Assembly: GCA_900109895.1 (NCBI GenBank)
Contig: FOBR01000014.1
Location: forward strand, 1-64,000
Source of the DNA: a bacterium A37T11
Lineage (GTDB): Bacteria > Bacteroidota > Bacteroidia > Sphingobacteriales > Sphingobacteriaceae
Reading direction: 5' to 3'
DNA: 64,000 bases
Position numbers and translations under genes: made by a program. Of the stretch, positions 3,785 to 40,880 are shown piece after piece (position 1 is the first letter of the stretch; each line of letters starts with the position of its first letter). The notes under the pieces were generated by a model. The model was not told the origin of the DNA. It did no database searches and saw nothing but the letters and a program-made list of their open reading frames with translations.

Positions 3785-3932
3785 CGTGCGAAACTTCATG
3801 GGACCGGTTAAACAGTCCCACATTTAAAAAATTATATGGCCAAATATAGCTAAAATTTAAAATCTACTAATTATATGAACAATATATTATATTTGAATGC
3901 GAGCTATGGTTTTATTCTCACCAAATAATCCA

Positions 3933-3940
3933 TACATTTG
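3933..3940 (+). promoter_or_regulatory. Bacteroidota -7 element TACATTTG
   Basis: TACATTTG matches the TAnnTTTG -7 element of Bacteroidota primary sigma promoters and ends 8 bp before the ATG at 3949, implying an almost leaderless mRNA. The surrounding 110 bp (3838-3947) is duplicated at 6858-6960. Confidence 0.55.
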
Positions 3941-3948
3941 TACCCTCG

Positions 3949-4491
3949 ATGAGCAGCGCACTAATTATTATTGACATTCAACTGGATTATTTCAAAAACG
4001 GGGCAATGGAACTTGTCGGCGCTGAGGAGGCTGCCGCCAATGCTAAACTTATACTAGCAAGCTTTCGCAGTCAAAACCTCCCGGTCATCCATATCCAGCA
4101 CATTTCGACCAGACCTGAAGCCACTTTTTTTCTACCTGATACCACAGGGGTTCGTATCCACCCAGACGTCACACCCCTACCTGATGAACGGGTCATTGTC
4201 AAACATTATCCCAATAGTTTCAGAGAGACTGGGCTTTTGGCCTACTTGCAAACCCTCCCCATCCAGGATTTGGTTATTATAGGGATGATGACGCATAATT
4301 GCATCGACTCCACTACCAGGGCTGCCAAAGACTTTGGTTATGATTGCACCATTATTGCAGATGCCTGTGCGACAAAAGACTTGCAACTAAATTCCAAATT
4401 AGTACCTGCGGAATTTGTCCAGAATGCCTTTCTGGCAGGCTTAAGTTATTATTATGCAAACATCGTCACGACAGAAGCGTTTTTAAAATAA
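3949..4491 (+). CDS. Isochorismatase-like cysteine hydrolase
   Basis: A 180-residue cysteine hydrolase of the isochorismatase/nicotinamidase superfamily. The catalytic triad is visible as Asp9 (LIIIDIQLDY), Lys85 (VIVKHYPNSF) and Cys118 (GMMTHNCIDSTTRAA). Members cleave amide or vinyl-ether bonds in small metabolites; the substrate here is unknown. The gene is complete, but parts of it recur at 6858-7103 and 14613-14647, so it was duplicated at least twice. It is cytosolic, with no signal peptide. Confidence 0.88.
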   Translation: MSSALIIIDIQLDYFKNGAMELVGAEEAAANAKLILASFRSQNLPVIHIQHISTRPEATFFLPDTTGVRIHPDVTPLPDERVIVKHYPNSFRETGLLAYLQTLPIQDLVIIGMMTHNCIDSTTRAAKDFGYDCTIIADACATKDLQLNSKLVPAEFVQNAFLAGLSYYYANIVTTEAFLK

Positions 4492-4492
4492 G

Positions 4493-4527
4493 TTACTCAC
4501 TAAATAATAAGACCTGGTCCAAGATCA
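4493..4527 (-). pseudogene. GH115 gene 3-prime scrap (35 bp)
   Basis: Identical to the last 35 bp of the GH115 gene (14649-14683), directly after the cysteine hydrolase stop. At 14.6 kb the GH115 3-prime end lies in the same relation to a cysteine hydrolase tail, so this is the relic of a duplicated convergent gene pair. Confidence 0.7.
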
Positions 4528-4549
4528 TTCCGCTCTCATCCCCGCGTCC

Positions 4550-4594
4550 TCGCCCCTGCACATTGGAAAATACATTATCCTATCGGTCCTATAA
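4550..4594 (+). pseudogene. GreA-like gene 3-prime scrap (15 codons)
   Basis: Encodes SPLHIGKYIILSVL and a stop, matching the end of the protein at 216-479 with one substitution. It is a relic of the duplicated GreA-like/sulfatase segment. Confidence 0.7.
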
Positions 4595-4609
4595 ACAGCT
4601 ATGAACATT

Positions 4610-6145
4610 TTAGTGAATGACCTCATCCGGATAGGGAACAGAAAGACCTGTTGTCCTAATTATAGGCATAGGTGATTTCCACTCCTTAAGTTGCTTACCA
4701 AGCAGTAGCGCCAGTTGCCGCACCTTTTCAGGATTATGTTCAGCCAGGTTATTCTTTTCGCCTATATCTTTGTGCAGATTGTAGAGCTCAAAACTTTGAT
4801 CCCTCATATTATATAATAACTTCCACTCTCCTTTGCGGATGGCACTCTTGTAATTGATCCCAGGCCCGTCATCCTTTATCCATTTATTGGGATAATGCCA
4901 AATAAGCGCCCGAGACGAATCCACCAACGCGGGATCTTTCAGTATCGGCACGAAACTTTGGCCATCCAGACGCTGTATCATATGTTCAGGCCTGACACCA
5001 GCTATCTCAAGGATACTTGGGAAAAAGTCTTCAATGAGCATGTATTGATCAGTTTGAGTACCTACCTTGACCTTCCCTGGCCACTTGACCATCATAGGCT
5101 CACGAATACCCCCCTCATTTAGGGAACCCTTCCCGGCTTTCAACGGAAGGTTTTGCGTATGCCCCTCCCCACTTCTGGGGGGGACCAGGCTCAGCCCACC
5201 ATTATCACTCATGAAAATGATCACCGTATTATCGGCCACATGTTTAGCCTTTAAAAAATCCATCAAGTCTCCCAAACTTTTGTCCATTCCTTCCAATAAA
5301 GCCGCATATTGTGCCTCCGCGCTATCCAGACCGGCATCCACATACTTTTGGTAAAAGCGAGCGTCCTTTTTCAACGGAACATGCACCGCGTAATGCGCCA
5401 TATTTAAATAAAAGGGCTGACCGTCATGGATGGGCTTTTCAAGCGCCTTCATTGCTTCAAGCGTCAGTGCCTCCGTCAAAAAAGTATCTGTGCCATGGTA
5501 TTCTTCCAGATCGGGTACTGCCTGCCAACTAGATTTACCTGGTATGTTGCCATAATTTTCCTGACCAAGATAGCTTTGGGGGTGCCCAGCCGCATGGCCT
5601 GCTATATTAACCATAAACCCCAGGTTATAGGGGTTTGCGCCCGGAGTACCAGCAGAACCTAAGTGGGCCTTGCCAACATGGATCGTATAGTAACCAGCAT
5701 CCTTTAACAACTGAGGGTATGGCGTAGCATAGATGGTATGAGCAATACCTGGTACCGGACTAAAGCCATTGAAATTCCATGGAGCAGCAGCAAATTGATC
5801 ATCCGGCGCATCCGTGTTATTATTAGCAACCGGAGAAGTCCAATTGGTAACCCCATGATGGGCAGCATTTAATCCCGTCATGAGGCTTACCCTCGATGGG
5901 GTACATACCGATTGCGCATAGGCATTGGTAAATTTCATACCTTCCCTGGCCAACCGTTCCATATTAGGGGTATGATATCGCTTGTTAAGTGGTGTACGTT
6001 CCCTCCAAAAAGGAACTGACGTATCCTGCCAGCCCATATCATCCACTAAAAACAAGATAATATTGGGGCGCTTCTGCGCCTGTGCAACAAATGAAAACGT
6101 TAATATTAATAGGCATGCGATGAAGGCAATTTTACTTAGATTCAT
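4610..6145 (-). CDS. Secreted Cys-type sulfatase (511 aa)
   Basis: Third type I sulfatase. Signal peptide (residues 1-23, ending AQAQ), then RPNIILFLVDDMGWQD with the metal-binding aspartates, and CTPSR with Cys81 as formylglycine precursor. HVGKAHLG and FMSDNGG supply the remaining active-site residues. It is longer in the first third than the other two and only distantly like them, so a different sulfated sugar is likely. A deleted copy lies at 676-835. Upstream (6184 onward) is the end of a broken susD, which once was probably in the same operon. Confidence 0.9.
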   Translation of the reverse strand: MNLSKIAFIACLLILTFSFVAQAQKRPNIILFLVDDMGWQDTSVPFWRERTPLNKRYHTPNMERLAREGMKFTNAYAQSVCTPSRVSLMTGLNAAHHGVTNWTSPVANNNTDAPDDQFAAAPWNFNGFSPVPGIAHTIYATPYPQLLKDAGYYTIHVGKAHLGSAGTPGANPYNLGFMVNIAGHAAGHPQSYLGQENYGNIPGKSSWQAVPDLEEYHGTDTFLTEALTLEAMKALEKPIHDGQPFYLNMAHYAVHVPLKKDARFYQKYVDAGLDSAEAQYAALLEGMDKSLGDLMDFLKAKHVADNTVIIFMSDNGGLSLVPPRSGEGHTQNLPLKAGKGSLNEGGIREPMMVKWPGKVKVGTQTDQYMLIEDFFPSILEIAGVRPEHMIQRLDGQSFVPILKDPALVDSSRALIWHYPNKWIKDDGPGINYKSAIRKGEWKLLYNMRDQSFELYNLHKDIGEKNNLAEHNPEKVRQLALLLGKQLKEWKSPMPIIRTTGLSVPYPDEVIH

Positions 6146-6857: not shown

Positions 6858-7118
6858 GCCAAATATAGCTAAAATTTAAAATCTACTAAATATATGCACA
6901 ATATATTAAATTTAAATGCGAGCTATAATTTCATTCTCATCAAATAATCCATGCATTTTTCACACCCCTACCTGATGAATTGGTCATTGTCAAACATTAT
7001 CCCGCATCGAATGACAAAAGTCTTGCAAGTAAATTTCAAATTAGTGCCTGCGGAATTTGTGCAGAATGCCTTTCTGGCAGGCTTAAGTTATTACTATGCA
7101 AACCAGTGCCTTTATTTC
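6858..7118 (+). pseudogene. Decayed second copy of the cysteine hydrolase and its promoter region
   Basis: 6858-6960 matches the intergenic/promoter region 3838-3947. Short blocks then match parts of the cysteine hydrolase gene (4168-4215 and 4370-4462) with the rest deleted. The copy ends in 16 bp (7103-7118) identical to GH115 coding DNA at 14693-14708. It is non-functional: catalytic Asp and Cys are lost. Confidence 0.75.
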
Positions 7119-7136
7119 TTTTGTGGAATCATACTT

Positions 7137-7177
7137 AACAAAAACCGCCATCACGTTTGGAAGTGTGATGGCGGTTT
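7137..7177 (-). terminator. Rho-independent terminator of the first PUL
   Basis: A 13-bp perfect stem (7142-7154 with 7165-7177, core CCGCCATCAC/GTGATGGCGG) and a 10-nt loop, followed on the minus strand by a T-run. It lies just after the SusD stop at 7186. Confidence 0.8.
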
Positions 7178-7185
7178 GTCAACTT

Positions 7186-8784
7186 TTAATAGCCAGGATT
7201 TTGCTTCAGATCTGGCTCAACCCGTAAAACTGTTTGATGAATCGGCCACAAATAATTATAAGGTTGAAATGTGCGGTCCTCAATTTTCAAGGATTTTTTT
7301 TGCCCGTCAACCAATCTGGTATACCCCAAGGCTGGCTGATTTAGTACATCTTCTGCGATGTGCCACCTAATAATGTCATCGTACCGCAAGCCTTCACCTG
7401 CAAATTCTATTCGGCGTTCATTTCGCAAGAGAGCTATCCATTGATCATGAGAGTATGAACTAAACGACGGTAATGTCACATCCGCCACGGTCATATCCAG
7501 TCCAGCACGCCGCCGTATCTGATTAATACAATCTTTTGACAAATCATCAAATTCATTGAGCATCAGCTTGGCTTCAGCATAAGTAAGCAAAACTTCTGCA
7601 TAACGGATTAGCCCATAGGTAAGCGTTCCGTCCCTGAATGCATCCGCATCAGATACGAATTTCCGAAACCAATAGCCCGATTTACTAGCCCGTTGATTTT
7701 CGTAATACATGGGATTGTTGGTGTTAAAAATGTCGATTTTTTCACCGTAGAAGGTGTCTCCTTGGCCCATAATACTAGCAGCATATCGGGGGTCCCTGTT
7801 TAAAGCGGGGTTAAGCTCATACTCATCTTTCGTATGCAGCGGACAGTCGCTGATGGGCCGTCCCTGTAGGGTCCAATAAGTATCAACGAGAGACTTGGTG
7901 GGTACCGAATATGACTGTCCGTTTCCTGTGCGGAAAGGAGGGCCAAGATCCCGAAAAGAAGTGGTAGCGCTATTACCTACGCTTTCCCGTTCCATATGAA
8001 TAATAAATTCTTTGTTTGAGTTGTCTCCTTCATATTGGAATAAGTTTTTGTAACTCGCATTTAACTCATACTGCTTACTATCCATGATCTCCTTTGCCAG
8101 CCTGGCTGCTAGTTCATACCTTTCTGTAAAAAGGGCATAACGCATGATAAGGGCTTTAAAAGAGTTTTTATTAAACATATACTTATTAGTGGTGTATTCG
8201 CCTTCAGGCAGGCGTGAGATCACGTCATCAGCCATGGTAAAAAGGTTGGTAAGTACTTCTTCCTTTGGCAAGGGGGCTGATTTAGCCTCTTCAATAGTGG
8301 CTGGAACCAGCACAAACGGGATATCTCCCCAACGGATCACTGCTTCAAAATAATGCCATATGCGTAAACCTTCAAGGATCGCTTTGTAACGTTGACGAAC
8401 AGATTCATCTTCCACATAGGGTACATCAATATTGGCAATATAAGTATTTAAACGGCCGATATGTTTGAAGTGGATGGTCCAATAGTATTCAAAGGCCCGC
8501 GTATTGCTATTAATGGTACCGTTGGCAATACGTTGATGATGGTCATCTTCAGAACGGCTATAAGCGTTATCAGAACGCGCGTCTTGCATATAAAAAAGCA
8601 ACTTCCGATCATTACGATTGGTGAATACATCGGTATAGGTGCTGTAAACAACGCGGCGCAGATCATCCTCATCTACAAAAAACTCTTGAAAGGTGGTGGC
8701 GGTAGGGTCTGTTTTGTCTAAGAATTTATCACACCCAATCAACGCCTGGCATCCTATCAATAAAATACCAAATATCTTTTTCAT
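7186..8784 (-). CDS. RagB/SusD family outer-membrane lipoprotein
   Basis: SusD-like glycan-binding lipoprotein (about 532 aa) that sits on the outer membrane over its SusC partner. Lipobox-type signal ending LIGCDKFLDKTDPT, then TPR-like helices (SVRQRYKAILEGLRIWHYFE) and the C-terminal YAEVLLTYAEAKLMLNE...INQIRRRAGLD, LRNERRIEFAGEGLRYDDIIRW, ending NPGY. I prefer the ATG at 8784, which follows AAAGAGA; 8802 is possible. It is the last gene of the sigma-FecR-SusC-SusD operon and is followed by a strong terminator. Confidence 0.92.
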   Translation of the reverse strand: MKKIFGILLIGCQALIGCDKFLDKTDPTATTFQEFFVDEDDLRRVVYSTYTDVFTNRNDRKLLFYMQDARSDNAYSRSEDDHHQRIANGTINSNTRAFEYYWTIHFKHIGRLNTYIANIDVPYVEDESVRQRYKAILEGLRIWHYFEAVIRWGDIPFVLVPATIEEAKSAPLPKEEVLTNLFTMADDVISRLPEGEYTTNKYMFNKNSFKALIMRYALFTERYELAARLAKEIMDSKQYELNASYKNLFQYEGDNSNKEFIIHMERESVGNSATTSFRDLGPPFRTGNGQSYSVPTKSLVDTYWTLQGRPISDCPLHTKDEYELNPALNRDPRYAASIMGQGDTFYGEKIDIFNTNNPMYYENQRASKSGYWFRKFVSDADAFRDGTLTYGLIRYAEVLLTYAEAKLMLNEFDDLSKDCINQIRRRAGLDMTVADVTLPSFSSYSHDQWIALLRNERRIEFAGEGLRYDDIIRWHIAEDVLNQPALGYTRLVDGQKKSLKIEDRTFQPYNYLWPIHQTVLRVEPDLKQNPGY

Positions 8785-27747: not shown

Positions 27748-28044
27748 CTACCGCAAACGTTTTATCTTTCGACCATACCACCATTTTTTGAATAGAAAAA
27801 TTAAATGGCCAAGTAGTGAGTTCTGGCCGGATACCGCTAAGGTAATATCCTTTGGCAGTAATTTATGCGGATTTACATCCAATACTTTGGCGATCTTAAT
27901 GATATGAATCAAAGTAATGGTTGTTTCCCCCGATTCTATTAAGCTATAGGCAGGCTGGCTCATTCCCAAAGCTTCTGCGATCTGGTCTTGTTTTATGTCC
28001 AGTTCTCTTCTTTTTTTCCGGATTATTTCAGGCACTCTGCGCAT
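27748..28044 (-). CDS. XRE-family transcriptional regulator, 98 aa
   Basis: An HTH_3 domain fills the first 65 residues (IIRKKRRELDIKQDQIAEALGMSQPAYSLIESGETTITL), followed by a basic tail with a hydrophobic stretch (LLGHLIFLFKKWWYGRKIKR). Probable DNA-binding repressor. It is divergent from the double-glycine peptide gene at 28184, with a 15-bp palindrome in the gap, so control of the peptide is plausible. Confidence 0.8.
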   Translation of the reverse strand: MRRVPEIIRKKRRELDIKQDQIAEALGMSQPAYSLIESGETTITLIHIIKIAKVLDVNPHKLLPKDITLAVSGQNSLLGHLIFLFKKWWYGRKIKRLR

Positions 28045-28078
28045 AAAATATAACTTAAAGTGTTAAAAATAGGTTTTT

Positions 28079-28093
28079 ATAAGCGTAGCTTAT
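28079..28093. promoter_or_regulatory. Palindromic candidate operator
   Basis: ATAAGCGTAGCTTAT: 6-bp arms around GTA, with a second half-like word (TGTAGCTTG) about 20 bp on. It lies between the XRE gene and the peptide gene. Candidate XRE binding site by position. Confidence 0.45.
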
Positions 28094-28183
28094 ATTATAT
28101 AAATGTAGCTTGTTTACTATATACCAGCATCTTACGATCTTTGTTTTTGTCTTTAATGCAGAAGACGAACACATAAAAAAATC

Positions 28184-28366
28184 ATGAAAAAAGCATTTAA
28201 ACATCACCCGGAAAATGTAAAACTGATCATTCCGGCAGAAATGACCGAAATGACTGCAGAAGCACAGGAGCTCATCACAGGTGGAACGCGGAAACCAAAT
28301 AGCAAGGTTTTTTTGGTAGCCCAGGCCATGATCTTCTACTTTACTTTTGGTATCCCGCTGTTTTAA
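28184..28366 (+). CDS. Double-glycine leader peptide (bacteriocin/RiPP-like precursor candidate)
   Basis: A 60-residue peptide. Residues 1-34 look like a C39-peptidase leader ending MTAEAQELITGG, with hydrophobic residues at -12 and -4 and Gly-Gly at -2/-1. The 26-residue remainder starts TRKPNSK and ends in a hydrophobic segment (VFLVAQAMIFYFTFGIPLF) with no Cys. The C39 exporter encoded 0.8 kb away on the same strand is the obvious processing enzyme. The rhomboid gene converges on it. I cannot name a family; reality rests on the leader motif and context. Confidence 0.55.
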   Translation: MKKAFKHHPENVKLIIPAEMTEMTAEAQELITGGTRKPNSKVFLVAQAMIFYFTFGIPLF

Positions 28367-28382
28367 CATCTCCTGCACCATG

Positions 28383-29041
28383 TCAATGTTCATTTTGATG
28401 GATGATTTCAAGTACCAACGATGGATGCAGGAGCAATGCGTACACCAAGCCGATAAAACGCCGGTCAAATGAGGTCCGGCGGCTCTACCGGTCTTGAGCG
28501 TTGCCAACACTATCAATATACCCAAGAAAGTCAAAGAGAGTTGGTACCCACATATAAATGGTGTCTTGCTCCCCGGTTTCATCGGTCCCTCCATGGGATA
28601 ATAGAGGCATGCAAACACAACCAATGCACACGTAAATGCAGACATTCCATAAATCGATACACCAGCATGCCTTCGGTATTTCAAACTGGTCAACCCATTA
28701 ACGATTACCACTACACCCACCCAAAACAGCAGAAACAAGCAGATGCCGCCATATGGTCCAAAATCACTTTTCAAAAAATATTCAATATCATCCATGAGGT
28801 AAAAAGCAAAACCTATATTCATCAGCAAATGCTTCCATCCCGCATGGATAAGTCCTGCCGTAAACAAGGTATACCTGTGCTTCTCATGGAGTACATCTTC
28901 TGGCCTGCATACCAGGTTTGCAAATAACGGAGGATGATAGAAAGCAATAATACTGGTCATACATACTAACAGCGTTACTCCATAAGTCAGTGGCGATTCA
29001 TTAAGTGAAGGCAATACAGAAAGGATAGATAGGGCTTTCAT
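28383..29041 (-). CDS. Rhomboid-family membrane protein with probable frameshift
   Basis: Rhomboid-like intramembrane protease. HAGWKHLLMN (residues 66-75) is the family TM2 signature; the Ser motif reads GVSIYGMS instead of GxSGA; His191 is in HLTGV. Directly after that the frame leaves the family: restoring one T in a T-run near 28463 gives VFIGLVYALLLHPS and a stop at 28383-28385, a normal 219 residues. As it stands the frame runs to 28055 with unrelated residues. Either a recent mutation or a homopolymer error. Confidence 0.65.
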
Positions 29042-29149: not shown

Positions 29150-31339
29150 ATGAAAAAGCACCGGCAACATGATCTGAAAGATTGCGGGGCCGCCTGCCTT
29201 GCCGCTGTGGCCGATCACTATGGCAAGTACGTTCCATTGGCATCGATCCGCTTGCTGACGGGCACCGACCGAAATGGGAGTAGTCTGGCCGGATTGCGGT
29301 ATGCAGCAAAAAAACTTGGTTTTCAAGCTCAGGCCGTACAGGGGAGTTATACCGGTCTTCAAAAAGCCATTTTGCCCGCTATTGTTCATTTAAAATTATC
29401 TGAAATGGATCATTTTGCGCTCGTTTTCCAAGCGGGCGCAAAAAATCTCCGTCTGATGGATCCAGTCAACGGGAAGCTAAAAACGGTAAAAACAAGTGCT
29501 TTTTTTCAACAGTGGGGCGGACATGCGTTGTTACTTCAACCCGGACCCACTTTTTGCAGCCAGGGTAAAGCACCTTCCCTATTCAGCCGCTTTACCCTGC
29601 TGCTCAGACCCCACCGGCATACCTGGCTTAAAGCACTTGCCGCTACCGCCTGTTGCAGCCTGCTCTCCTTTGGAAATGCCATTTTTGTCCAACTATTGGC
29701 AGACCGTGTCCTTGCCAAAGGCAATAGCGCTCTTTTAATGCCGCTCGTTTGTTTGTTTAGTGCGTTGCTTATTATCCAAACCGTACTTAGCGTCCTAAAA
29801 AACCTGGCCGTTTTAAAGACTGGCCGCGCTATTGACCACCAACTCATACACGGTTATTGCCGCCATTTACTCCAATTACCTCAACGGTTTTTCGACCAAA
29901 TGCAGACCGGGGAGATCATCTCACGAATCAATGACGCTTTTAAAGTGCGTTACTTTGTCAATGATGTACTGGTGAACTTAAGCGTGCCGCTATTTGTCAT
30001 ACTTATCTCGCTCACGTTGCTTATGGGTGTCCATTGGCGCCTGGGCGTTGTCATCCTCGCCGCTCTACCCATATATATGATCGTTTATCGTATCAGTTAT
30101 TTTATCCATGGCAAAGTGCAGCGTCGTATCATGGAACAAGATGCCGAGCTGGATGCTCAATTGACCGAGAGCCTGCGTGCTATCCGCACAGTAAAACAAT
30201 TGGGACTAGCGCTCCCTATCTCGCTCAAAACAGAAAGCCTGCTTTCCAACCTGCTCCACACCTCCTCTATTTCTGGCAAAAATACCATCTTTACAGATGC
30301 CAGTACCGAATTTCTGGCACAAGCCATCAGCCTTGGCCTGTTATGGCTGGGCAGCCATCTGGTTTTGGAAGGGGGGCTCAGCCTGGGCGAACTGCTCTCC
30401 TGCTATGCGATACACGGCTACTTCAGCCGATCGGCCAGCCAGCTTATCGGGTTAAATAAAAGCTTACAGGACGCACGCATAGCTATGGAAAGGCTCTATA
30501 GCATTCTGGAACTTCCTCCAGACGAAGACCCCACGGCTACGCTATGTCAACCGGATCACCTGGCCGGTATCTGGTTTGAAAAGGTGACCTTTGGCTATAA
30601 CCCGCGTCAACCCTTGTTATCTGAGGTCAATCTGCATATTCCCGCCGGGCAGATCACCTTGATCACAGGCCCATCCGGATCCGGAAAAAGTACCCTTTTC
30701 TCCCTCCTTCTCCAACAATATGTACCAGATGGCGGACAGATTCGATTTGGCATTTACGCCAGTTCGCTCATCAGCCATGAAGGTTTATTACGGCATATAG
30801 CCGTAGTACCACAACATACAGCGCTTTTTTCGGGGACCATTGCCGATAATATGACTAACGGAATTGGAGAGCCTGATGCAGATCGTATCCTTCAATTATG
30901 TAACCAGTTGGGCCTGCTGCCCTTTATAGAAAGCCTGCCTCTCGGCTTAGACAGTCCCGTAGGAGAAAATGGCCAGTTGTTCTCCGGCGGCCAGCGACAA
31001 CGCCTGTCCATTGCCCGGGCGTTATACCGGCAACCGCAAGTTTTACTCCTGGATGAACCGACGGCAGCACTGGATGAGGATGCCGAGCAAGACGTACTAC
31101 GATGCTTAACTGAAGCTTGCCGCCAAGGAATGACTATCGTCATCATCAGCCACCGCAATGCCTGCCTGACCATCGCTGACCATATACTCGAGGTCAGCCA
31201 AGGTCACATCCTACCCCGCACACCACAGACCGAATATAACAACATCATTCATTCACCCCTCAGCCCGCCCACCCCTGCCGATGAAACCCGCGGCCAGGCC
31301 GGCGGGCTGATACAAAAAAGAAAGGAAAAGCCCTATTAA
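29150..31339 (+). CDS. C39-peptidase ABC exporter (PCAT type)
   Basis: A 729-residue peptidase-containing ABC transporter that cuts a double-glycine leader and exports the peptide. Peptidase C39: Gln6, Cys12 (DCGAAC), His88 (MDHFALVF), Asp104. Membrane domain from about 160 to 440. ATPase: Walker A GPSGSGKST, signature FSGGQRQR, Walker B VLLLDEPTAALD, H-loop ISHR. All catalytic residues are present. No HlyD or TolC partner is encoded nearby, unlike many such loci in this phylum. The likely substrate is the peptide at 28184. Confidence 0.93.
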   Translation: MKKHRQHDLKDCGAACLAAVADHYGKYVPLASIRLLTGTDRNGSSLAGLRYAAKKLGFQAQAVQGSYTGLQKAILPAIVHLKLSEMDHFALVFQAGAKNLRLMDPVNGKLKTVKTSAFFQQWGGHALLLQPGPTFCSQGKAPSLFSRFTLLLRPHRHTWLKALAATACCSLLSFGNAIFVQLLADRVLAKGNSALLMPLVCLFSALLIIQTVLSVLKNLAVLKTGRAIDHQLIHGYCRHLLQLPQRFFDQMQTGEIISRINDAFKVRYFVNDVLVNLSVPLFVILISLTLLMGVHWRLGVVILAALPIYMIVYRISYFIHGKVQRRIMEQDAELDAQLTESLRAIRTVKQLGLALPISLKTESLLSNLLHTSSISGKNTIFTDASTEFLAQAISLGLLWLGSHLVLEGGLSLGELLSCYAIHGYFSRSASQLIGLNKSLQDARIAMERLYSILELPPDEDPTATLCQPDHLAGIWFEKVTFGYNPRQPLLSEVNLHIPAGQITLITGPSGSGKSTLFSLLLQQYVPDGGQIRFGIYASSLISHEGLLRHIAVVPQHTALFSGTIADNMTNGIGEPDADRILQLCNQLGLLPFIESLPLGLDSPVGENGQLFSGGQRQRLSIARALYRQPQVLLLDEPTAALDEDAEQDVLRCLTEACRQGMTIVIISHRNACLTIADHILEVSQGHILPRTPQTEYNNIIHSPLSPPTPADETRGQAGGLIQKRKEKPY

Positions 31340-31445: not shown

Positions 31446-32312
31446 GTGTTGGAAGACGATACAGCCCAGGTCCTTTGCCAACGCATTACGGGCGAAAATT
31501 TCAGCATGCGCCAGTTTTCCATAAAACCGGTCAGTGGCGCTATATCGTTTCCATTTAACTGCCTGCACCGAAGCCTAATACTCGTCTATGCCCTGAAAGG
31601 CCCGTTGATAGCTCGTTTTGTGCCCGATACAGAACCGGTCATCCTTCCCTCCCGCTTTTATTTGGGAACCTTGCTGGTGCCCGGCAGCTATCAGCTGGAG
31701 TTGCCCGCTACAGACAGTTCCTATCTATATGTCCAGATCCGCTACCGCTACCTGCGGTTTCTCAGTAAAAAGAATAAGGCACTCCGTCCCTTATGCCGGG
31801 CTTTTGAAGAAAGCCCCAGCCAACCCATTTACTTCCAGATGGCCTACATTGACCAGGAGGTATTAAAACTGTTTTCGCGCATCAAAGCCCTCGGTCTATC
31901 AGACAACCATTTGCCCATCGCTATTAAACACTACCTCGTTGACCTCTTGCAACACTATGGACAGCAACTCTTACGGTCAGACCCCATCGCCTATTTAAGA
32001 AGCGAAGAAAAAGTCCTGCTATTGATGCAGCATCTGCAGCTGCACTATACCGCACATGGTATAGAGAAACTGGACACCTTAAAAGCGCAGTTTTACTTAT
32101 CGCGAAGTACACTCACCCGGGTATTTGAGGATATGTATGGTTGCTCCATAGGCTATATGGTCACCTACTTGCGCATGCACCAGGCCAAAAGACACATTCG
32201 GGATGGGCTCACGATAAAAAAGTCCGCCCAGCTCGTCGGATTTGAAAATGAATTTGCATTTAGCCGGGCTTATCATTCCTTCTTCGGCCATTCCCCACGC
32301 CAAAAAGATTAA
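31446..32312 (+). CDS. AraC-family regulator (N-terminus uncertain)
   Basis: C-terminal AraC HTH pair: LDTLKAQFYLSRSTLTRVFEDMYGCSIGYMVTYLRMHQAKRHI, then KKSAQLVGFENEFAFSRAYHSFFGHSPRQ. The N-terminal 200 residues may be a sensor domain. The first usable start is GTG at 31446, but the frame stays open to about 31310, just inside the end of the ABC gene, with protein-like sequence and an ATT where an ATG would be expected, so the true start may be non-canonical or mutated. It follows the exporter and may regulate it. Confidence 0.8.
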   Translation: MLEDDTAQVLCQRITGENFSMRQFSIKPVSGAISFPFNCLHRSLILVYALKGPLIARFVPDTEPVILPSRFYLGTLLVPGSYQLELPATDSSYLYVQIRYRYLRFLSKKNKALRPLCRAFEESPSQPIYFQMAYIDQEVLKLFSRIKALGLSDNHLPIAIKHYLVDLLQHYGQQLLRSDPIAYLRSEEKVLLLMQHLQLHYTAHGIEKLDTLKAQFYLSRSTLTRVFEDMYGCSIGYMVTYLRMHQAKRHIRDGLTIKKSAQLVGFENEFAFSRAYHSFFGHSPRQKD

Positions 32313-32483: not shown

Positions 32484-33869
32484 ATGAACGCATCGGCAGA
32501 CATCGGGATTACCACCAGCAACTATCGGGATTACCTAAAGAAAAGATGTGCGGCCTGTAAGGCGGATGACAAACTGCTTTACATTATGGAGCCAGTAGTA
32601 AAACCTGGATGGATGCTGTTCATTAGTTTGACCCTACTTGATTGGGAGACATTGATCGATCCGATCCTGGATATTTTAGTAGCCGAGCATGTGTCTTTTA
32701 TCTTACCTAAAAACCGGGAGGTCCATAATCAGATTAACAGTGATGGATTGGGTGGGCAATTTACTGGGAAGGTCATCACCATATTTCCCAACAGCGAGTT
32801 GCAGCTTACGTATTTATTGGAACGGTTAGTATCTGTGACCCGGACGGCCAAGGGTATCCGCATACCCAAAACTTATTATCTCGGTGGCCAGGTATATGGT
32901 GGCTACGCCACTTCCCCTTCTGGCTTATATAAGGAAGCGATCTTTTCATTGCCAAAAATCCATCCGTTTGGTGAGAAGATCCACCACCTATCAGCCGGAA
33001 AACGACTGATTGCGGGTTCGTTTATTCCTGTACAATACATCCGCAGCGGTGCAAAAAGCGATATTTATAAAGGGGTATCCATCCGCAAGCCATTTATGCA
33101 ATGGTGTTTTATTAAAAAGGGTAAGATTAACTCCGCCGCTGATGAAACCGGTAGGGATATCTATGATCGGCTGCGGTGGGAACACGAAGTACTGCTAAAA
33201 TTGAAAGGATTTCCATTTGTTCCAAAAGTCTATGGAATGAGCAGTGATGCGGAGCATATGTACCTGATCACTGAGTTTATTGATGGAGTTACCCTTTCTG
33301 ATAAACTGAAGGATTTGCTGGAAGGAAAAACCTATAAAGAGGCTGACCTTGCCATTAAAATAGAAGTATTGGATATTTTTAGTGACCTTCTCTATTCCAT
33401 GCAACAGTTACACGACCTAGGAGTGGTTCATCGGGACCTCACCGACAGCAATGTGCTCTTTAGCAAAAAAGGTGGTATTCATCTGGTGGATTTTGAATTG
33501 GCTTATGACCTCCAAAATGACCGGCCTGATCCTGCTTTTGTATTTGGCACATTGGGCTATGTGTCTCCTGAACAGATGTCATATGCCAGACCCACTATCC
33601 AGGAGGATCTGTATTCTCTGGGCGCATTGTTGTATGCCGGCCTGACTGGCCATCAACCCAAAAACACATTACTTAAATCTAAAACCCACGCGCTCCAAAG
33701 GCTGACAGACCAAACCGGTTCATCCGGACTCTCGGCCATCATTCGGAAATTATTGAATGATACACCTGATGAACGGTTACCGTTATCTCAGGTAAAAACA
33801 GTTCTCGTAACTGAAAAACTGGCCATTTTAGCTGCTATTGTCGCAGGAAAGGAGGTCTATCATGCCTAA
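32484..33869 (+). CDS. LanKC-like lyase/kinase protein without cyclase domain
   Basis: A 461-residue protein resembling the first two domains of class III lanthipeptide synthetases. The N-terminal lyase-like part has [18 protein letters not shown] and [12 protein letters not shown]. The kinase part has Lys in the WCFIKKGK strand, HRDLTDSN (316-323), DFE (336-338) in place of DFG as in LanKC enzymes, and [10 protein letters not shown]. The LanC-like cyclase that normally follows is missing: the next gene starts within its last codons. It may phosphorylate and dehydrate Ser/Thr of a peptide, or act as a plain kinase. Confidence 0.75.
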
Positions 33870-34350
33870 GCGCTGGGTTTTGGAAATTGTGGTAGCCTTT
33901 GTATTCTTATACCTGGTCATCACCGGCGGGGCCAAGCTTTTTGACTTTAAACAGTTCGGCTTTGACATGAATGCACAGCCAGTAGCCGAGTGGATCAAAC
34001 CCTGTTTGAAATATTCTATCCCATTTATACAAATTATTTTGGCGTTTCTTCTGGAAATTGATAAGACCAGGTTGGCTGCTTTGGTGGGAAGTACCGTCTT
34101 GATCGCTAGTTACATTGTTTATATTTTAGCTATCAACCACGATTTCTTTCCATTTCAGCCTTGTTCCTGCACATGGATCAACAAACATTTGGCCTATACC
34201 CATACCCTGCACCTAAATGTTATTGCCATTAGCTGGACTGCTTATGGTTTATTAATAGTGCTTATAGCAGGCTTGATAAAGCGCAGGAAACATCGTAAAA
34301 CTCAGAAATTACATTCATTTAATATTCATAAGGAGGAACTGGTATCATGA
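33862..34350 (+). CDS. MauE/DoxX-like redox membrane protein
   Basis: About 162 residues with four hydrophobic segments ([62 protein letters not shown]) and a PCSC motif between helices 3 and 4, as in MauE-type membrane redox proteins that help form disulfides. Start at 33862, 8 bp inside the LanKC-like gene, with AAAGGAGG at the right distance. Followed by another AAGGAGG and the 13-codon ORF. Fits the downstream TlpA-like protein and two-Cys secreted protein. Confidence 0.8.
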
Positions 34351-34466: not shown

Positions 34467-34748
34467 ATGAAAACTTTAAGAATAGTAATGCTTGCAGTAT
34501 TAGGACTTGCAGGCTATGTTGGAGCTGGCGCCGCTGCAGGCGCAAATCGGCAAAGTGGTACGTTGTACCACAAAATTGGGTCAAATAATTATGAGGTTGT
34601 GCTTGCTTCCAATATGGGAAGTGCTCCTGGAAAATGGAGTTGTACAACAAATCCGGACGCAACTTGCACTTATAATAGGAACAGCGCCGCTCCCATCAGT
34701 GATTCCAATGCAGTCCAGGCATCAGCCGGTAATTTTGTTCAACATTAA
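34467..34748 (+). CDS. Small secreted two-cysteine protein (DUF6520-like)
   Basis: A 93-residue protein: signal peptide (MKTLRIVMLAVLGLAGYVGA), then a mature part with a conserved-looking LYHKIGSNNYEVVL and two Cys (59 and 67) in KWSCTTNPDATCTYN. It resembles small Bacteroidota proteins found near MauE and TlpA-like genes, which I know as DUF6520; the assignment is from memory of pattern. The two Cys probably form a disulfide made by the neighbouring redox proteins. Followed by a bidirectional terminator. Confidence 0.65.
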   Translation: MKTLRIVMLAVLGLAGYVGAGAAAGANRQSGTLYHKIGSNNYEVVLASNMGSAPGKWSCTTNPDATCTYNRNSAAPISDSNAVQASAGNFVQH

Positions 34749-34788: not shown

Positions 34789-34818
34789 AAGGGATAGGCT
34801 CAGCGGCCTATCCCTTTT
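34789..34818. terminator. Bidirectional terminator
   Basis: AAGGGATAGGC/GCCTATCCCTT 11-bp perfect stem with a 6-nt loop and T-rich flanks, between the convergent two-Cys protein and TlpA-like genes. Its loop overlaps the TlpA stop codon. Confidence 0.8.
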
Positions 34819-36287
34819 AGGTTTTTATCAATGAGTTCCATAAGTATTTTGGAATCCGGGTGGATACCTCCACCTAAATCGTAAATATTCCGGCTGATGA
34901 TATGCCCATTTTTGCCAATCAAAAAGGGAGCCGGTGCCCCATTTACCCCATAGGCCTTACAAACAGAATGATCAAAACCTTCCCCTTCGGTATATAAATT
35001 AATGGCGTGCTCACTGGTATATTTATTTTCTCTGATGGCGTTAATCCATGTTAATTTGTTTATATCCAATGAGATAGAAACAAATACAATGTCGGGATTG
35101 TCTTTATAACGATTTTCTATAGCTGCCAATGTATTGCTAAATAGCATCGCACATGGGATGCAACCTTTAAACCAAAAATGGAGGTATACCAACTTACCCT
35201 GAAATTTATCAAGCGCTATTTTTTGACCATGTTCATTCTCCAAGTTAAAGTTGTAAGCAACCGACCCATCCCCGAATTTTTTAGATATTTCGCTCAATAG
35301 TTTTCTATAAGGCTGGAATTGGATATGCCGAGTTTCCGCTTTCATCAAACTATCCAGGTTACTAACCTGATCAATGCTTAAAAGAAGATTATGGGTGATC
35401 AATTTGTCTTTCATGAAACCTACGTATTGTTGATTGGCCACATCATAATAATTCAGCTTTCCCTTCGTCAAAAAAGACTCAAGAGATAGTTCCTCAAAAG
35501 CAAATTCCATGTAGCTTGGTGAAAAACTATAGGTATCCTGAAGATCTTTATTAGTTAGTTTATTATACTTTTGCAGCAGGATTAAGGTTTTGTCAAAATT
35601 CTTTTTGCTGCTTTTTAGGTTTCCATTGGTGTAGTAGAACAAGGCAGCCGAAGCGGCTGCCTTAAGGGATTTACCGATCATTTCAGCAGCAAGCAGATCG
35701 TAACAAACCGGTGAAACCTGTTTTCTGAAACGATCCAGTGCATCTACTAATTTCCCTGACAACTCGTTGCCATTTCTAAAATAGATCTCCTGCGTTCTGA
35801 TGACGGCGCTGTCGCCTTTATTTTTTAAAGACAATACTTCGCCGATCGTGGAGTTACTAAGTGAATCGCTTACGGTTTTTAAACGACGGGACAAATCTTC
35901 CATCAATGTATATTTTATGGAATTCCTTCCGGAAAATTCATTCCCTTTACTTTTACACCAGATCATGATGGAATCCCCGGCTTCCGCTACAAAGCGGTCC
36001 AGGAGGATTCCTCCGCTGTATCGCAATGAGAATACACAAGCCGGATCAGGAAGGACAAGATCAAAGGTATATTTCCCGTTTTTAAGTTGTGCATCCATTT
36101 TTTTAACCGGCAGCATACTTTCCAGATACGGCAGGTAGGATTTGTCGTAAATGAGCAAAGTCAACGATCGGTCGCTTGCCGCACTATCTGCAAAATGGAC
36201 AGTGAAATGATACCGGTTTTCCGCAAACAACGACTCGGATCCCGTTAATGCGATAAAAAAAATTAAACTAAGAGCTCTTAAGTTCAT
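34800..36287 (-). CDS. TlpA-like thioredoxin-fold protein (495 aa)
   Basis: Signal peptide, a DUF4369-like N-terminal beta domain, a helical middle, and a C-terminal TlpA/thioredoxin domain (from about residue 355) with the redox motif CIPC in LHFWFKGCIPCAMLF and a cis-Pro in NGAPAPFLIG. It acts in the periplasm in disulfide reduction or oxidation. It ends in the shared terminator and is the last gene of a SusC-SusD-TlpA operon. The context with MauE and a two-Cys secreted protein supports a disulfide role. Confidence 0.88.
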   Translation of the reverse strand: MNLRALSLIFFIALTGSESLFAENRYHFTVHFADSAASDRSLTLLIYDKSYLPYLESMLPVKKMDAQLKNGKYTFDLVLPDPACVFSLRYSGGILLDRFVAEAGDSIMIWCKSKGNEFSGRNSIKYTLMEDLSRRLKTVSDSLSNSTIGEVLSLKNKGDSAVIRTQEIYFRNGNELSGKLVDALDRFRKQVSPVCYDLLAAEMIGKSLKAAASAALFYYTNGNLKSSKKNFDKTLILLQKYNKLTNKDLQDTYSFSPSYMEFAFEELSLESFLTKGKLNYYDVANQQYVGFMKDKLITHNLLLSIDQVSNLDSLMKAETRHIQFQPYRKLLSEISKKFGDGSVAYNFNLENEHGQKIALDKFQGKLVYLHFWFKGCIPCAMLFSNTLAAIENRYKDNPDIVFVSISLDINKLTWINAIRENKYTSEHAINLYTEGEGFDHSVCKAYGVNGAPAPFLIGKNGHIISRNIYDLGGGIHPDSKILMELIDKNLKGIGR

Positions 36288-36298
36288 GTGCTGATTAT

Positions 36299-37696
36299 TT
36301 AGGGCCTTGGATTCTGAACGAGGTGATTTAGCCTGATCTCCTCGCCCGGGATGGGCAATGTATATAAATTGCTATTCGGAGGCAGTTGATAAACGGTGCC
36401 GTCCAGTTGCCGGCTGACGGTGATATGAAACCCTTCTTTGTTTAATCTCCGGAGGTCCTGCCATCGAAGACCTCGAAAAGCCAGTTCTTTTCTTCTTTCT
36501 GCCAGCACAGTGTTTAAAGCACTACTTTGGTCAGTAATTTGATAGGGCATGTATTTACCGGTCCTAAACCGGGTGATGAGGAGTTTGTTCAGCAGGCCTA
36601 TCCCTTCTTCAACCTGATTATTCCGAATCAGGCATTCCGACCTGATGAGGTATAGTTCATCCATAGCGAAACCACCAAAATTATCGTACCCTCCATAGCT
36701 CAGATTGTTATTCGCTTTTCCAGGATAGGCGTAAGAGGGGGTATAATAAAAATCCTTTCTTAAATCATCAGGTAAATATGAATCGTATAGCGTTGAATCA
36801 ATCAGGGTATTGGGACTTCCCCCGGCCGCATAGAATATAGGGTCATTAATGCCCAAAGCGCTTTGGCAGATCGTTTCCGGATTGTTATAGTCAATATAAA
36901 ACGGCGTGGATTGTGTCGCCAGATCATTGTAATTGAGAAGCTGATCGGTTAAAGCCAGGCTTTTTTCTGCATAGGTACCTGCATACCCGTAGTCTCTCAT
37001 GGCAAGATAAACTCTGGATAAGGCTGCATATGCGGCCTCTTTACAGGGACGCCCCCTCAATTTGGAGGGCAGGCCTGCCGGGAGCAAATCCGCAGACAGC
37101 GCGAAGTCTTTTATCAATTGGGTATAGGTCAATTTCAGTGTTGCCCGGCCGTAGGATTGGTCCACGTTCGGCGAAAGCCGGAGGGGAATGCCTAAATCCG
37201 TTTCGGCAGAAGAAGGATCGTATACCGGGGCAAACAGCTGTGCTAAATTAAAAAAGGCATACGAGCGGCAAAATAAAGCCCATCCTTTCACAAAATCCCA
37301 CTGAAAGGCATTGATGTCGTTTCTTTGGACCCCATTTAAACCGTCTAACACAACATTTGCGATAAAAACCTGCTGATAGGCACTGGACCAATCCAATATT
37401 CCATAGGAACTTTCCTCAAAATCGGGTTTGAAAAGATAGGCGCTTCGTTGATACACCAGGACCAATGCTTCCAGTGCGCTCCGGTTTGCCAGGTAAAAAT
37501 TGTCAGAAGAGATCTCCCCCAGGTTGGAGGTTGAATTCATGAGCTCATAATTGTCCAAAAGCCGGGTATAATCGTCCAGGGTTTTAGGTATAATCAGCGC
37601 AGTATACGGCTTTTTATCCAAATATTTTTGGCAAGAAGTGGTCAATACGGCCATCAGGCAGCAAATACATGCAGTTATTTTTTTAATTAATTTCAT
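36299..37696 (-). CDS. RagB/SusD family lipoprotein (465 aa)
   Basis: Lipoprotein signal (LTTSCQKYLDKKP, Cys22), a short SusD-like fold with FVKGWALFCRSYAFFNLAQLF, RPCKEAAYAALSRVYLAMRDY, and a C-terminal LYLIRSECLIRNNQVEEGI and LAERRKELAFRGLRWQDLRRL ending NPRP. The smaller size and the TlpA neighbour are typical of SusD proteins tied to protein or peptide uptake rather than glycans; that link is inference. Confidence 0.9.
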   Translation of the reverse strand: MKLIKKITACICCLMAVLTTSCQKYLDKKPYTALIIPKTLDDYTRLLDNYELMNSTSNLGEISSDNFYLANRSALEALVLVYQRSAYLFKPDFEESSYGILDWSSAYQQVFIANVVLDGLNGVQRNDINAFQWDFVKGWALFCRSYAFFNLAQLFAPVYDPSSAETDLGIPLRLSPNVDQSYGRATLKLTYTQLIKDFALSADLLPAGLPSKLRGRPCKEAAYAALSRVYLAMRDYGYAGTYAEKSLALTDQLLNYNDLATQSTPFYIDYNNPETICQSALGINDPIFYAAGGSPNTLIDSTLYDSYLPDDLRKDFYYTPSYAYPGKANNNLSYGGYDNFGGFAMDELYLIRSECLIRNNQVEEGIGLLNKLLITRFRTGKYMPYQITDQSSALNTVLAERRKELAFRGLRWQDLRRLNKEGFHITVSRQLDGTVYQLPPNSNLYTLPIPGEEIRLNHLVQNPRP

Positions 37697-37706
37697 CTTC
37701 TGATCT

Positions 37707-40700
37707 TTAAAACGTGGCTTTCATCCCAAGTGCAATGCTTTTTTGTTGGGGTAGGTCAGTAAACTCTGGGTCGATGTCTGCTTTCTTCCAGATCTGGCCC
37801 AAATCGGATAAGTACAGATTGCAACTTAAGTCGGAAAACGGGAAACCGGAAATCCTGCTTTTGCTCCATTGATAAGAGAGCTGGATGTCCTGCAGCCGGA
37901 TATGGTCTCCTCTGGCAACAAGTACTTCCGAATTGCTGTAAAATTGGTCCCTGCTACTGCTCCTTGGATAGGTCATCGAAGGTACATCTGTGGTCGCCTC
38001 ATCCCCCGGTTGTTGCCATCGCTTGCTGTAATCGCTTTTGCCGGGTGTATCCAACGTGAAAAGCCCGCTGTAATTAATGGAAAGTTGCCGGAAATAATAA
38101 CCCAGCTTGTACAGCACATTAAAAGACAAGGTCAGTTGCTTGTACTGAAAGGTGTTCCGTAAACTACCAAACAATTGCGGGCTGGAAGTGCCGTTATAAA
38201 TCACGCTTTCTTCGTTGTCAGCTGTATTAATACTACTCCATGCCTTACTTGGCTCGCCGTTCAGATAACCTATGGGATCGCCAGTCGCCGGATCAAGCCC
38301 TGCCCACCTGTAGCTGTAAAGGGCGCTATATGGTTTTCCTTCGTGGAGCCCCAAGGCGGTCGTTGACGCCATATAATGGGTGATTTTGTCGGCACTATAG
38401 CTAAGCAAGAACTGTGTGGACCATGTAATATCAGGGCTTACTAAATTGTTGGAAGATACGTTGACATCAAGCCCATTTCCGGTCATATCGGCAGCATTCC
38501 CTTTGAATTGCGTAAAACCTGTGGACGCTGCCAGAGGACTAAAACCGATCAGATCTTTCGCGTTCCTGGTATAGTATTCTATACTCCCGAAAAGCCTGTT
38601 TTGCGTTATGGAAAAATCCAGGCCGTAATTCCTGACCGCGATCTTTTCCCAGCGCAGGGAAGGATTAGGCGGGTTAACGATCGTGGCGGCATTGGTAGCA
38701 AAGGTATAACTGTATTGAGCCTGTGCTGTTGTAAAAGCCGAAACGGTTTTGTCGACATTGCCATTGTATCCATGGGTGACGCGCAGGCGCAAATAAGGCA
38801 ACCAATCCAGTTGGTAAAAGGATTCCTTGCTCAGTATCCAGCTCCCTCCCACAGACCACAGCGGGACGGTTTTTTGATTGGCTTTTACACCGAATAGATT
38901 GGAGGCGTCTTTGCGGCCGCTTAAGGTAAGGGTATACTTGCTGTCATAGGTATATGCTGCGTTTGCATAGTACGAGTAAGATCGGTCTGTCGTACCGCCT
39001 GTGGAAGCCACAAGGGGAATGGGCCGCTTTGCGCCTGTTATAATCGTTGGGTACGGGTTGACGTAATCCATGGCACTAAAAGCTCCGATATCTCCATCAT
39101 AACCATACAACCTGTTTTTGTCAAAGGAGCTTTCGTAGTCCTTTAGTTCTGCACCGGCAATGGAGGTGACCTGGTGTTTTTCAAACGACCAATCAAAGTT
39201 TAGTTGCCCGCGCACATTGTGCGAGTAAAAACCGGAGCGGTATCGATCCAGGATATCCCCTTCCGGAATGATTTTGTTTAACGCACCAGTAGCCCGATTT
39301 ACTTGCGTATACTGATTGACCAGATCACGTACAAAATACGTGTCCGCACCTTGCAGGTTGTCTTCTTCATTATTGCCGCTCGTATATTGGTAGAGTACAC
39401 TGAGGGAAAACAGTTTGTTTATTTTGTATTTCAGGCTGCTGTTTATGGTGTAAGTGGTGATTTTGCGATGGTCATCATATTGGTTAAATTCATCCATGGG
39501 TTTCCTTGACCAATCTAACAAGGCTCCGCCTCCGATCGTGTCTATCCAGGATTTACGGTAAGGATAGTCTGTAGTTGGATTTCCGGCATCGTCTACCAAA
39601 GGAATATAGATGCGGATTGGGCGAATATTGGCGCTGTTGGAACTGTAGCTGATCTTGTTGACAACATAGTTCACCCCGATGTTCATTTCTAACCGGTCTT
39701 TTAATAGATAATAGGTATTCGCCGCATTCAGTGTAATTCGGCTGTCGCCGGCTTTTTGCATCTCTCCAATGTTGTCATCATACCCTGCAGAGAATAGATA
39801 TTTGTTATGGGCACCCCCACCATTGATACTAACTGCGTTCTGTTGGTTGACGGCATTCCGGTAGAAGTATTTTTCCTGGTCTCGTCGGTAGTCATATTGC
39901 GATAGTTGAGCGATCTGAGCGCTGGCTTCATCTGCTGTGATACCCCCATCTCGTTGTTTGAACAGAATATCCTGTAAGGGGGAGATCGCCTGATAGGCTA
40001 CAGCGGAGTACCAATCGAATACGTTTTTGTCAAACAGGAATTTTTCCACTTCGATCATATCAGCGGTAGACATTTGGTGCCTGCCCATCATATCGGCCTT
40101 CTCCCGGATAGTCACATTGGAACTGATAGTCACTTTTGCGGCCTGGTTCAACTGGCCTTTTTTGGTGGTGATCACAATGACGCCATTGCCTGCCCGCACA
40201 CCCCAAATGGAGGCTGCGGCGGCATCTTTCAAAATGGTGACCGAGGAAACATCATTCGGATTTATAGTAGAGAGGTCTCCATCATAGGGAAAATTATCTA
40301 CTACAATCAATGGATCGGCATTGGCCAATATGGTACTGCGGCCCCGGATGCTAAACCCGAGGGTATTGGTTCCGTTGTTTGGCCCGACACCAAATAGCAC
40401 ACTACTGGACACGCCTTTGAGGCGATCAAGTATATTTGTTGAAAAGCTCCGGTTTAGCAGGGTACTGTCAATAACGGTAAAACTTCCGGTGCTGCGCTCG
40501 GGTGAAAGTTTTTGATACCCCGTACTTACCTCCACTTCCTCCAGCTCATTTCCCTCTGATGCCAATTTTATGATGAGTGGCATCTTGGTATCCGGGCCGA
40601 AAGGGATTTCTTGGGCTTGGTAGCCAAGGAAGGTGACGAAGATGGTGCCTTTAATAACAGGCGTCGTTAACCTAAAGCTGCCGTCCTTATCGGTCATTAC

Positions 40701-40880
40701 CCCTAAACCACCGGATTTGAGTTTGACGGTGGCACCTTCAAGGGGCTTGTTGTCGCTGGCGGAGATCACGGTGCCGGTAATGCTGCGCGGCTGGGTTTGT
40801 GCCTGGACAGAACCCGTTATTAAGCTGACTATGCATAGGAATGGCACGTACCATCCCCCTAAGCGTAAAATTTGCTTCAC
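37707..40880 (-). CDS. SusC/RagA TonB-dependent transporter (1057 aa)
   Basis: Signal ending VQAQTQP, carboxypeptidase-like domain (ITGTVISASDNKPLEGATVK), TonB box (EEVEVSTGYQKLSPERSTGS), plug with IRGRSTILANADPLIVVDNF and LKDAAAASIWGVRAGNGVIV, then the barrel. No STN domain. The plug variant IWGVRAGNGVIVI differs from the two glycan-type SusCs in the window (LYGSRGANGVV/IYGSRGAKGVV) and marks a different SusC clade. First gene of the SusC-SusD-TlpA operon; a hairpin cluster lies upstream. Confidence 0.92.
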   Translation of the reverse strand: MKQILRLGGWYVPFLCIVSLITGSVQAQTQPRSITGTVISASDNKPLEGATVKLKSGGLGVMTDKDGSFRLTTPVIKGTIFVTFLGYQAQEIPFGPDTKMPLIIKLASEGNELEEVEVSTGYQKLSPERSTGSFTVIDSTLLNRSFSTNILDRLKGVSSSVLFGVGPNNGTNTLGFSIRGRSTILANADPLIVVDNFPYDGDLSTINPNDVSSVTILKDAAAASIWGVRAGNGVIVITTKKGQLNQAAKVTISSNVTIREKADMMGRHQMSTADMIEVEKFLFDKNVFDWYSAVAYQAISPLQDILFKQRDGGITADEASAQIAQLSQYDYRRDQEKYFYRNAVNQQNAVSINGGGAHNKYLFSAGYDDNIGEMQKAGDSRITLNAANTYYLLKDRLEMNIGVNYVVNKISYSSNSANIRPIRIYIPLVDDAGNPTTDYPYRKSWIDTIGGGALLDWSRKPMDEFNQYDDHRKITTYTINSSLKYKINKLFSLSVLYQYTSGNNEEDNLQGADTYFVRDLVNQYTQVNRATGALNKIIPEGDILDRYRSGFYSHNVRGQLNFDWSFEKHQVTSIAGAELKDYESSFDKNRLYGYDGDIGAFSAMDYVNPYPTIITGAKRPIPLVASTGGTTDRSYSYYANAAYTYDSKYTLTLSGRKDASNLFGVKANQKTVPLWSVGGSWILSKESFYQLDWLPYLRLRVTHGYNGNVDKTVSAFTTAQAQYSYTFATNAATIVNPPNPSLRWEKIAVRNYGLDFSITQNRLFGSIEYYTRNAKDLIGFSPLAASTGFTQFKGNAADMTGNGLDVNVSSNNLVSPDITWSTQFLLSYSADKITHYMASTTALGLHEGKPYSALYSYRWAGLDPATGDPIGYLNGEPSKAWSSINTADNEESVIYNGTSSPQLFGSLRNTFQYKQLTLSFNVLYKLGYYFRQLSINYSGLFTLDTPGKSDYSKRWQQPGDEATTDVPSMTYPRSSSRDQFYSNSEVLVARGDHIRLQDIQLSYQWSKSRISGFPFSDLSCNLYLSDLGQIWKKADIDPEFTDLPQQKSIALGMKATF

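Follow-up and report, generated by a model that had tools for sequence, protein, structure and literature searches.

A putative Ser/Thr kinase derived from a lanthipeptide synthetase and linked to a MauE/exported-peptide/SusCD module in Bacteroidota

Introduction

The closest described systems to the protein reported here are the class IV lanthipeptide synthetases LanL, represented by CuvL (PDB 8cav and 8car), and the class III synthetases LanKC, represented by ThurKC (8sam and 8sap), PneKC, and SalKC. The lyase residues of ThurKC are Lys65, His67, Lys94, Lys108, Lys117, Asp152, Arg163, and Arg191; K65A and R163A abolished turnover, K94A left the peptide unmodified, and H67A stalled (PMC10604976). 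The leader peptide of ThurKC sits in a groove formed by the lyase and kinase domains (PMC10604976). The class V proteins CaoK (LanK; APH-type) and CaoY (LanY; HopA1-type) demonstrate that the kinase and lyase are separable from the cyclase, and CaoY is a working lyase without the equivalents of K104 and H106 in SpvC (PMC9486802). The OspF/SpvC/HopAI1 phosphothreonine lyases are regarded in the literature as distant kin of the N-terminal fold via LanKC and LanL.

Here, we report on an open reading frame (ORF) in a DNA stretch of 64,000 nucleotides (hereafter the window; positions 1 to 64,000 of contig FOBR01000014.1, assembly GCA_900109895.1) from the bacterium A37T11, a member of Sphingobacteriaceae. 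An earlier note on this DNA took the ORF for a LanKC-like protein devoid of the LanC cyclase domain and suggested either a dehydratase leaving Dha/Dhb uncyclised or a kinase with a new target. In the open-access literature, where the absence of a report carries little weight, we found no paper on a lyase-dead, LanC-less LanL/LanKC family and none on the MauE/peptide/TlpA/SusCD module described below.

Results

Domain composition and predicted fold of the 461-aa protein

The ORF at positions 32484-33869 on the forward strand was translated without interruption into 461 amino acids (aa). A RamC_N (lyase-like) domain was recognized by Pfam and the alignment at residues 38-128 (positions 32595-32867, +; 42.4 bits against the Pfam cut-off of 27), followed by a kinase domain at residues 189-437 (positions 33048-33794, +; Pkinase, 103.8 bits). 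The latter carries the motifs HRDxxxxN (H316-R317-D318...N323) and DFE (D336-F337-E338), and all of the residues of Hanks-type Ser/Thr kinases, K211 (the VAIK Lys), D318, N323, and D336, were present together with E338. The 461-aa protein gave no LanC-like match and has neither a transmembrane (TM) segment nor a propeller. The top NCBIfam models were LanL (187 bits) and LanKC (135.5 bits), both below the equivalog thresholds of 650 and 575 bits, respectively, and PASTA kinases scored lower (87 bits); the kinase domain taken alone also matched PknB-type kinases. The separate LanC gene that the earlier note had proposed to look for elsewhere was not found, as the search of the own genome (5.09 Mb, 97.5% complete) with PF05147 returned zero matches.

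An AlphaFold2 model of the full protein, built from a 12-sequence alignment, had a mean pLDDT of 80 and a pTM of 0.62. In the Foldseek search of this model against PDB, the first twelve rows were all lanthipeptide synthetases (CuvL, ThurKC, SalKC, and PneKC), and ordinary kinases came after. VIA-align matched CuvL (8cav) with a Z of 28.5 over 410 residues, covering model residues 9-444 and thus both the lyase and kinase domains. The N-terminal 180 residues folded alone, without relatives, reached a pLDDT of 48, which was too low for a structure search; the evidence for the lyase-like fold thus comes from the full-length model and Pfam. Kinases filled the VIA list, and the lack of OspF or SpvC rows in it is therefore uninformative on the lyase domain. 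Altogether, a lyase-like fold is present in the 461-aa protein as modeled. The length, lyase-like N-terminus, both kinase motifs, and overlap by the next gene given in the earlier note were all confirmed, and its reading as a LanKC-like protein without LanC was borne out by the two Pfam domains, the missing LanC-like match, and the fold match to CuvL. The structure prediction and LanKC comparison that the note had called for recovered a lyase-like fold with a match to LanL/LanKC across both domains; a missing lyase fold and ordinary Ser/Thr kinases as the nearest relatives, the two outcomes it had set against its reading, were not seen, and the nearest structures were lanthipeptide synthetases.

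Loss of the lyase residues and conservation of the kinase residues

We aligned the 461-aa protein with the fragments of ThurKC and CuvL obtained from the PDB search, six LanKC/LanL-type proteins encoded on plasmids of other phyla, and 38 Bacteroidota relatives. K65, H67, K94, K117, D152, and R163 (ThurKC numbering) were kept in all eight reference synthetases (ThurKC, CuvL, and the six plasmid-borne proteins). At the positions of K65, H67, K94, K108, K117, D152, R163, and R191, the 461-aa protein has M44, F46, I73, D87, K96, T130, G140, and a gap, respectively, albeit the alignment at R163 and R191, which lie in a variable stretch, is less certain than that at K65, H67, and K94. Thus, the lyase catalytic residues that the earlier note had asked to be checked are mostly gone, with only one of the eight retained (K117 as K96). 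The trio of K65, H67, and K94 was complete in none of the 38 Bacteroidota members, the nearest being L109 (K, H, R) and L035 (I, H, K), and no replacement set of lyase residues was conserved across the 38 relatives. The residues of OspF-type lyases are absent as well: I73 occupies the position of K136 in SpvC (equivalent to K94 in ThurKC) and F46 that of H106 (equivalent to H67). Since CaoY works without K104 and H106, the loss of those two alone is no proof of lost lyase activity; the K94 equivalent, in contrast, is kept in CaoY and missing in the 461-aa protein. The kinase residues K211, D318, N323, D336, and E338 were invariant in every aligned row, comprising the references and the 38 divergent relatives. 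A kept kinase combined with a lost lyase would show the pattern of a recruited kinase, unlike that of a decaying gene.

Distribution, architectures, and phylogeny of the family

Relatives were searched for among 200 relatives, 399 genomes of the family, and 395 genomes of the class, plus a collection of genome contigs; the scan of these contigs with the single protein found no relative, while the search with the alignment of a closer set did find relatives. The kinase family is distributed in Sphingobacteriaceae (Mucilaginibacter and others) and Chitinophagaceae (Chitinophaga and Flavihumibacter). Elsewhere in the class it is rare: beyond the window, a clear full match was found in the 395 genomes only once (G487), next to a single truncated one (G320), and the weaker matches covered the kinase portion only.

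Four architectures were recognized. The full-length form with a LanC-like domain spans 863-899 aa, and the short, cyclase-less form, to which the protein in the window belongs, spans 434-482 aa. Kinase-TM-propeller fusions of 814-828 aa were found at L034, L078, L079, and L080, and a fifth locus (L032) encodes the propeller in a second frame; in these five loci a receptor-kinase layout has arisen from a lanthipeptide synthetase. Mycobacterial PknD is a receptor-type kinase with an extracytoplasmic propeller, and the layout of the fused relatives is akin to that of PknD-like receptor kinases, from which the 461-aa protein differs in having no TM segment or propeller. The kinase-only form (L084, 293 aa, and L106) occurs in the same operon type, indicating that the lyase-like domain is dispensable. 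A different kind of protein is encoded at positions 6992-8158 (+) of L041, where a RamC_N-type domain was matched at 30.7 bits and a kinase is lacking; this 388-aa protein, surrounded by unrelated neighbours, is possibly a free-standing lyase-like protein.

In the kinase-domain tree, the 40 Bacteroidota rows formed one group with a support of 81/76, which is not strong, and this group was joined at 99/96 with the alphaproteobacterial protein of a Haematobacter plasmid (L110). The L110 protein (positions 2965-5703) is LanL-like with full sets of lyase and zinc residues, and no MauE gene was annotated within the 8.5 kb read. The relatives with a full LanC domain branched inside the same clade as the short forms, which appeared in several places (the trio L081-L083 was nested in the full-length group), suggesting repeated loss of the cyclase or, as a less simple scenario, its gain. 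The protein in the window formed a deep, long branch. The Cys-Cys-His zinc ligands of LanC were missing in the full-length Bacteroidota forms and kept in the LanL L114 and the sister L110. Class III enzymes likewise have no LanC zinc ligands, so that ligand loss alone is no proof of a dead cyclase. The full-length forms at L085-L096, L107, and L109 have neither the lyase K/H/K trio nor the zinc ligands, and their neighbours are MauE and an exported peptide with two Cys.

A conserved gene module around the kinase

In the window, an AraC-type regulator (31446-32312, +; HTH_18, 56.8 bits) lies directly upstream of the kinase; the ORF lists of other loci have Crp-like or XRE regulators at the equivalent position. 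Downstream is a membrane protein of the MauE family that bears a PCSC motif (33862-34350, +; MauE, 64.3 bits). Its likely start is the ATG at 33862, preceded by AAAGGAGG, and the kinase stop TAA is at 33867-33869, giving the 8-nt overlap; the ORF is also open from a TTG at 33838. Next comes a predicted small exported peptide of 93 aa (34467-34748, +) with a signal-peptide-like N-terminus and the Cys pair SC-TTNPDAT-C. It had no Pfam match and did not reach the cut-off of DUF6520 (PF20130; 25.4 bits), below which the peptides of some relatives also remained (19.5-19.7 bits). A terminator-like hairpin (34789-34816, +) with a 12-pair stem and a T-rich tail, identified by pattern match only, follows, and the kinase-MauE-peptide transcript unit appears to end there. 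Convergent to this unit are the genes for a TlpA-like thioredoxin-fold protein (34800-36287, -; Thioredoxin_8, 43.3 bits), a SusD-like protein (36299-37696, -; read from the ORF at the sequence level), and a SusC-like TonB-dependent transporter (37707-40880, -; ORF and SusC profile).

Two further features lie upstream. A complete bacteriocin-type C39 peptidase ABC exporter is encoded at 29150-31339 (+), with no evident double-glycine precursor identified alongside; we rejected it as a partner of the module, as a C39-domain ABC gene was nearby only in L075 and was weakly similar. An XRE-type regulator and a rhomboid-like gene occupy 27748-28044 and 28055-29041 (-), and rhomboid-like/XRE pairs with weak similarity to them immediately precede the kinase in the Mucilaginibacter loci L075, L076, L098, and L101.

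The order of genes in the window fits that of the related loci, which we compared by the labels of MauE, kinase, SusC, and propeller only, as several SusD genes had been labelled TlpA. MauE was downstream of the kinase in 38 of the 41 distinct loci, and directly adjacent except in L079, where it was ~1.2 kb further; in the other three (L033, L035, and L040), an EpsG-like membrane protein took its place. The linkage to MauE includes the full-length forms, and both an EpsG-like protein and MauE were found in L107 and L109. On the 3' side of MauE in the related loci is an ORF of 73-130 aa whose N-terminus resembles a signal peptide and in which a Cys-x6-8-Cys pair is nearly always present; one locus has a one-Cys candidate, and four Cys occur in four Chitinophaga-type peptides. 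TlpA, SusD, and SusC usually come after the peptide in convergent orientation, with TlpA at the same position in most loci. The Ser plus Thr content of the peptides was 0.25 beside the full-length forms, 0.19 beside the short kinases, and 0.17 in the kinase-less loci, with no clear difference between the latter two.

The own genome has 22 MauE matches. Among the eleven MauE regions examined, at least nine comprised MauE and the small exported peptide (L136, L137, L139-L141, and L143-L146), mostly with TlpA-SusD, and none had the kinase. The module thus occurs generally, with the kinase as an optional or accessory part. Separate genes for membrane-anchored propellers were found in the kinase-bearing loci L081 and L083 as well as in the kinase-less L136 of the own genome. 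The propellers, whether separate or fused to the kinase, tie the kinase to the membrane side of the module.

Discussion

By the tests made here on the lyase residues and LanC, the 461-aa protein is not a lanthipeptide synthetase, yet its descent from such an enzyme is clear, and it has the same fold. It resembles class IV LanL in the order of the lyase-like fold and kinase, and CuvL and LanL gave the best structural and NCBIfam matches, respectively; it differs in having no LanC, in the loss of the lyase K/H/K/D/R residues, in an NCBIfam score far below the LanL equivalog cut-off, and in a conserved neighbourhood without a lanthipeptide exporter. With class III LanKC it shares RamC_N plus kinase, DFE, and the kinase insertion before helix C, but it retains a single lyase residue of ThurKC, has no LanC, and is accompanied by a peptide with a Sec-type signal in place of a typical LanA leader. 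The catalytic Lys and His of the OspF/SpvC/HopAI1 lyases are missing, and unlike CaoY, of which the catalytic Lys is present, the protein has lost that residue; CaoK is also of a different (APH) type. Judging from its residues and its place in a conserved gene set with a small exported two-Cys peptide, the protein probably acts as a protein kinase in a new role rather than in the production of an antibiotic. We favor, with fair confidence, the view that it is a Ser/Thr protein kinase that came from a LanL/LanKC-type synthetase, is without the cyclase, has its lyase catalytically emptied, and serves the module.

The dehydratase that would yield an uncyclised Dha/Dhb peptide by lyase activity through unusual residues is improbable. 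The predicted lyase fold, the retained K117 equivalent, and class V LanY lyases that function with a different residue set (PMC9486802) can be raised in its favor, but the equivalents of the catalytic base (K94), the acid (H67), K65, D152, and R163 are lost, no substitute set is conserved in the 38 relatives, and the lyase-like domain is missing altogether in L084 and L106. The loss of the lyase residues next to intact kinase residues thus makes a dehydratase unlikely and an active kinase likely; the former proposal of the earlier note is unsupported by what occupies the ThurKC positions, and its alternative, the kinase with a new target, appears to fit better. We find it still less probable that the protein is a lanthipeptide synthetase that has decayed and no longer functions: the cyclase and lyase functions are lost and most modules of the own genome do without the kinase, but the kinase catalytic residues are invariant in the 38 divergent relatives, and the conserved open frame, gene order, and MauE overlap are not expected of a remnant. 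An ordinary Hanks-type housekeeping kinase with an unrelated, acquired N-terminal domain is hardly credible. Although the kinase domain alone matches PknB-type kinases too, the NCBIfam scores favor LanL over PASTA kinases by 187 to 87 bits, the top fold match covers both domains of CuvL, the DFE motif is present, and relatives with a full LanC domain belong to the same clade.

Under the favored view of a recruited kinase, the protein would be co-expressed with MauE and the small two-Cys peptide, probably with translational coupling, and TlpA-SusD-SusC would be the other half of the module, a component of which would most likely be the substrate. Given the lost lyase residues, a phosphate placed on Ser/Thr would stay and not be eliminated to Dha/Dhb. 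The pseudo-lyase has been retained and may help to dock a peptide, and for this reason the small peptide, prior to its export, is the first candidate; by analogy to ThurKC, the domain may have been kept for its peptide-docking groove. We put this candidate forward tentatively and only slightly ahead of a regulatory target; the Ser plus Thr content of the peptides favors neither. The at least nine modules that work without a kinase in the own genome also mean that the target may lie outside the module. A fuller version, which we regard as unlikely although worth stating, is a peptide-phosphorylating lineage, in which the kinase docks on the N-terminus of the Sec-exported disulfide peptide and leaves phospho-Ser/Thr, MauE and TlpA handle the cysteines, SusCD moves or receives the peptide, and an exported phosphopeptide replaces the lanthipeptide. 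Alternatively, a signalling, receptor-type kinase may sense the periplasmic state (the peptide, the propeller, or the redox state of MauE) and phosphorylate either a regulator in the cytoplasm or the MauE tail on that side of the membrane, leaving the peptide unmodified. The five propeller fusions and the kinase-only forms that dropped the lyase-like domain argue for a signalling role, as do the separate membrane-anchored propellers in two kinase-bearing loci and one kinase-less locus of the own genome; on the other hand, the module in the window has no propeller, the 461-aa protein has no TM segment, the family descends from peptide-modifying kinases, and full-length forms bearing a LanC-like domain occupy the same operon. 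We consider this signalling reading possible but somewhat doubtful.

Taken as a whole, the family looks like the stepwise dismantling of a lanthipeptide synthetase in one neighbourhood, with full-length forms that have a dead lyase and no zinc ligands, cyclase-less forms, kinase-only forms, and forms rewired to a propeller. It offers a manageable example in which an enzyme of antibiotic production took on another use, and a caution for genome mining, since 'LanKC' genes of Bacteroidota may be miscounted as lanthipeptide clusters. It also links a kinase to the abundant and uncharacterised MauE/exported-peptide/SusCD module.
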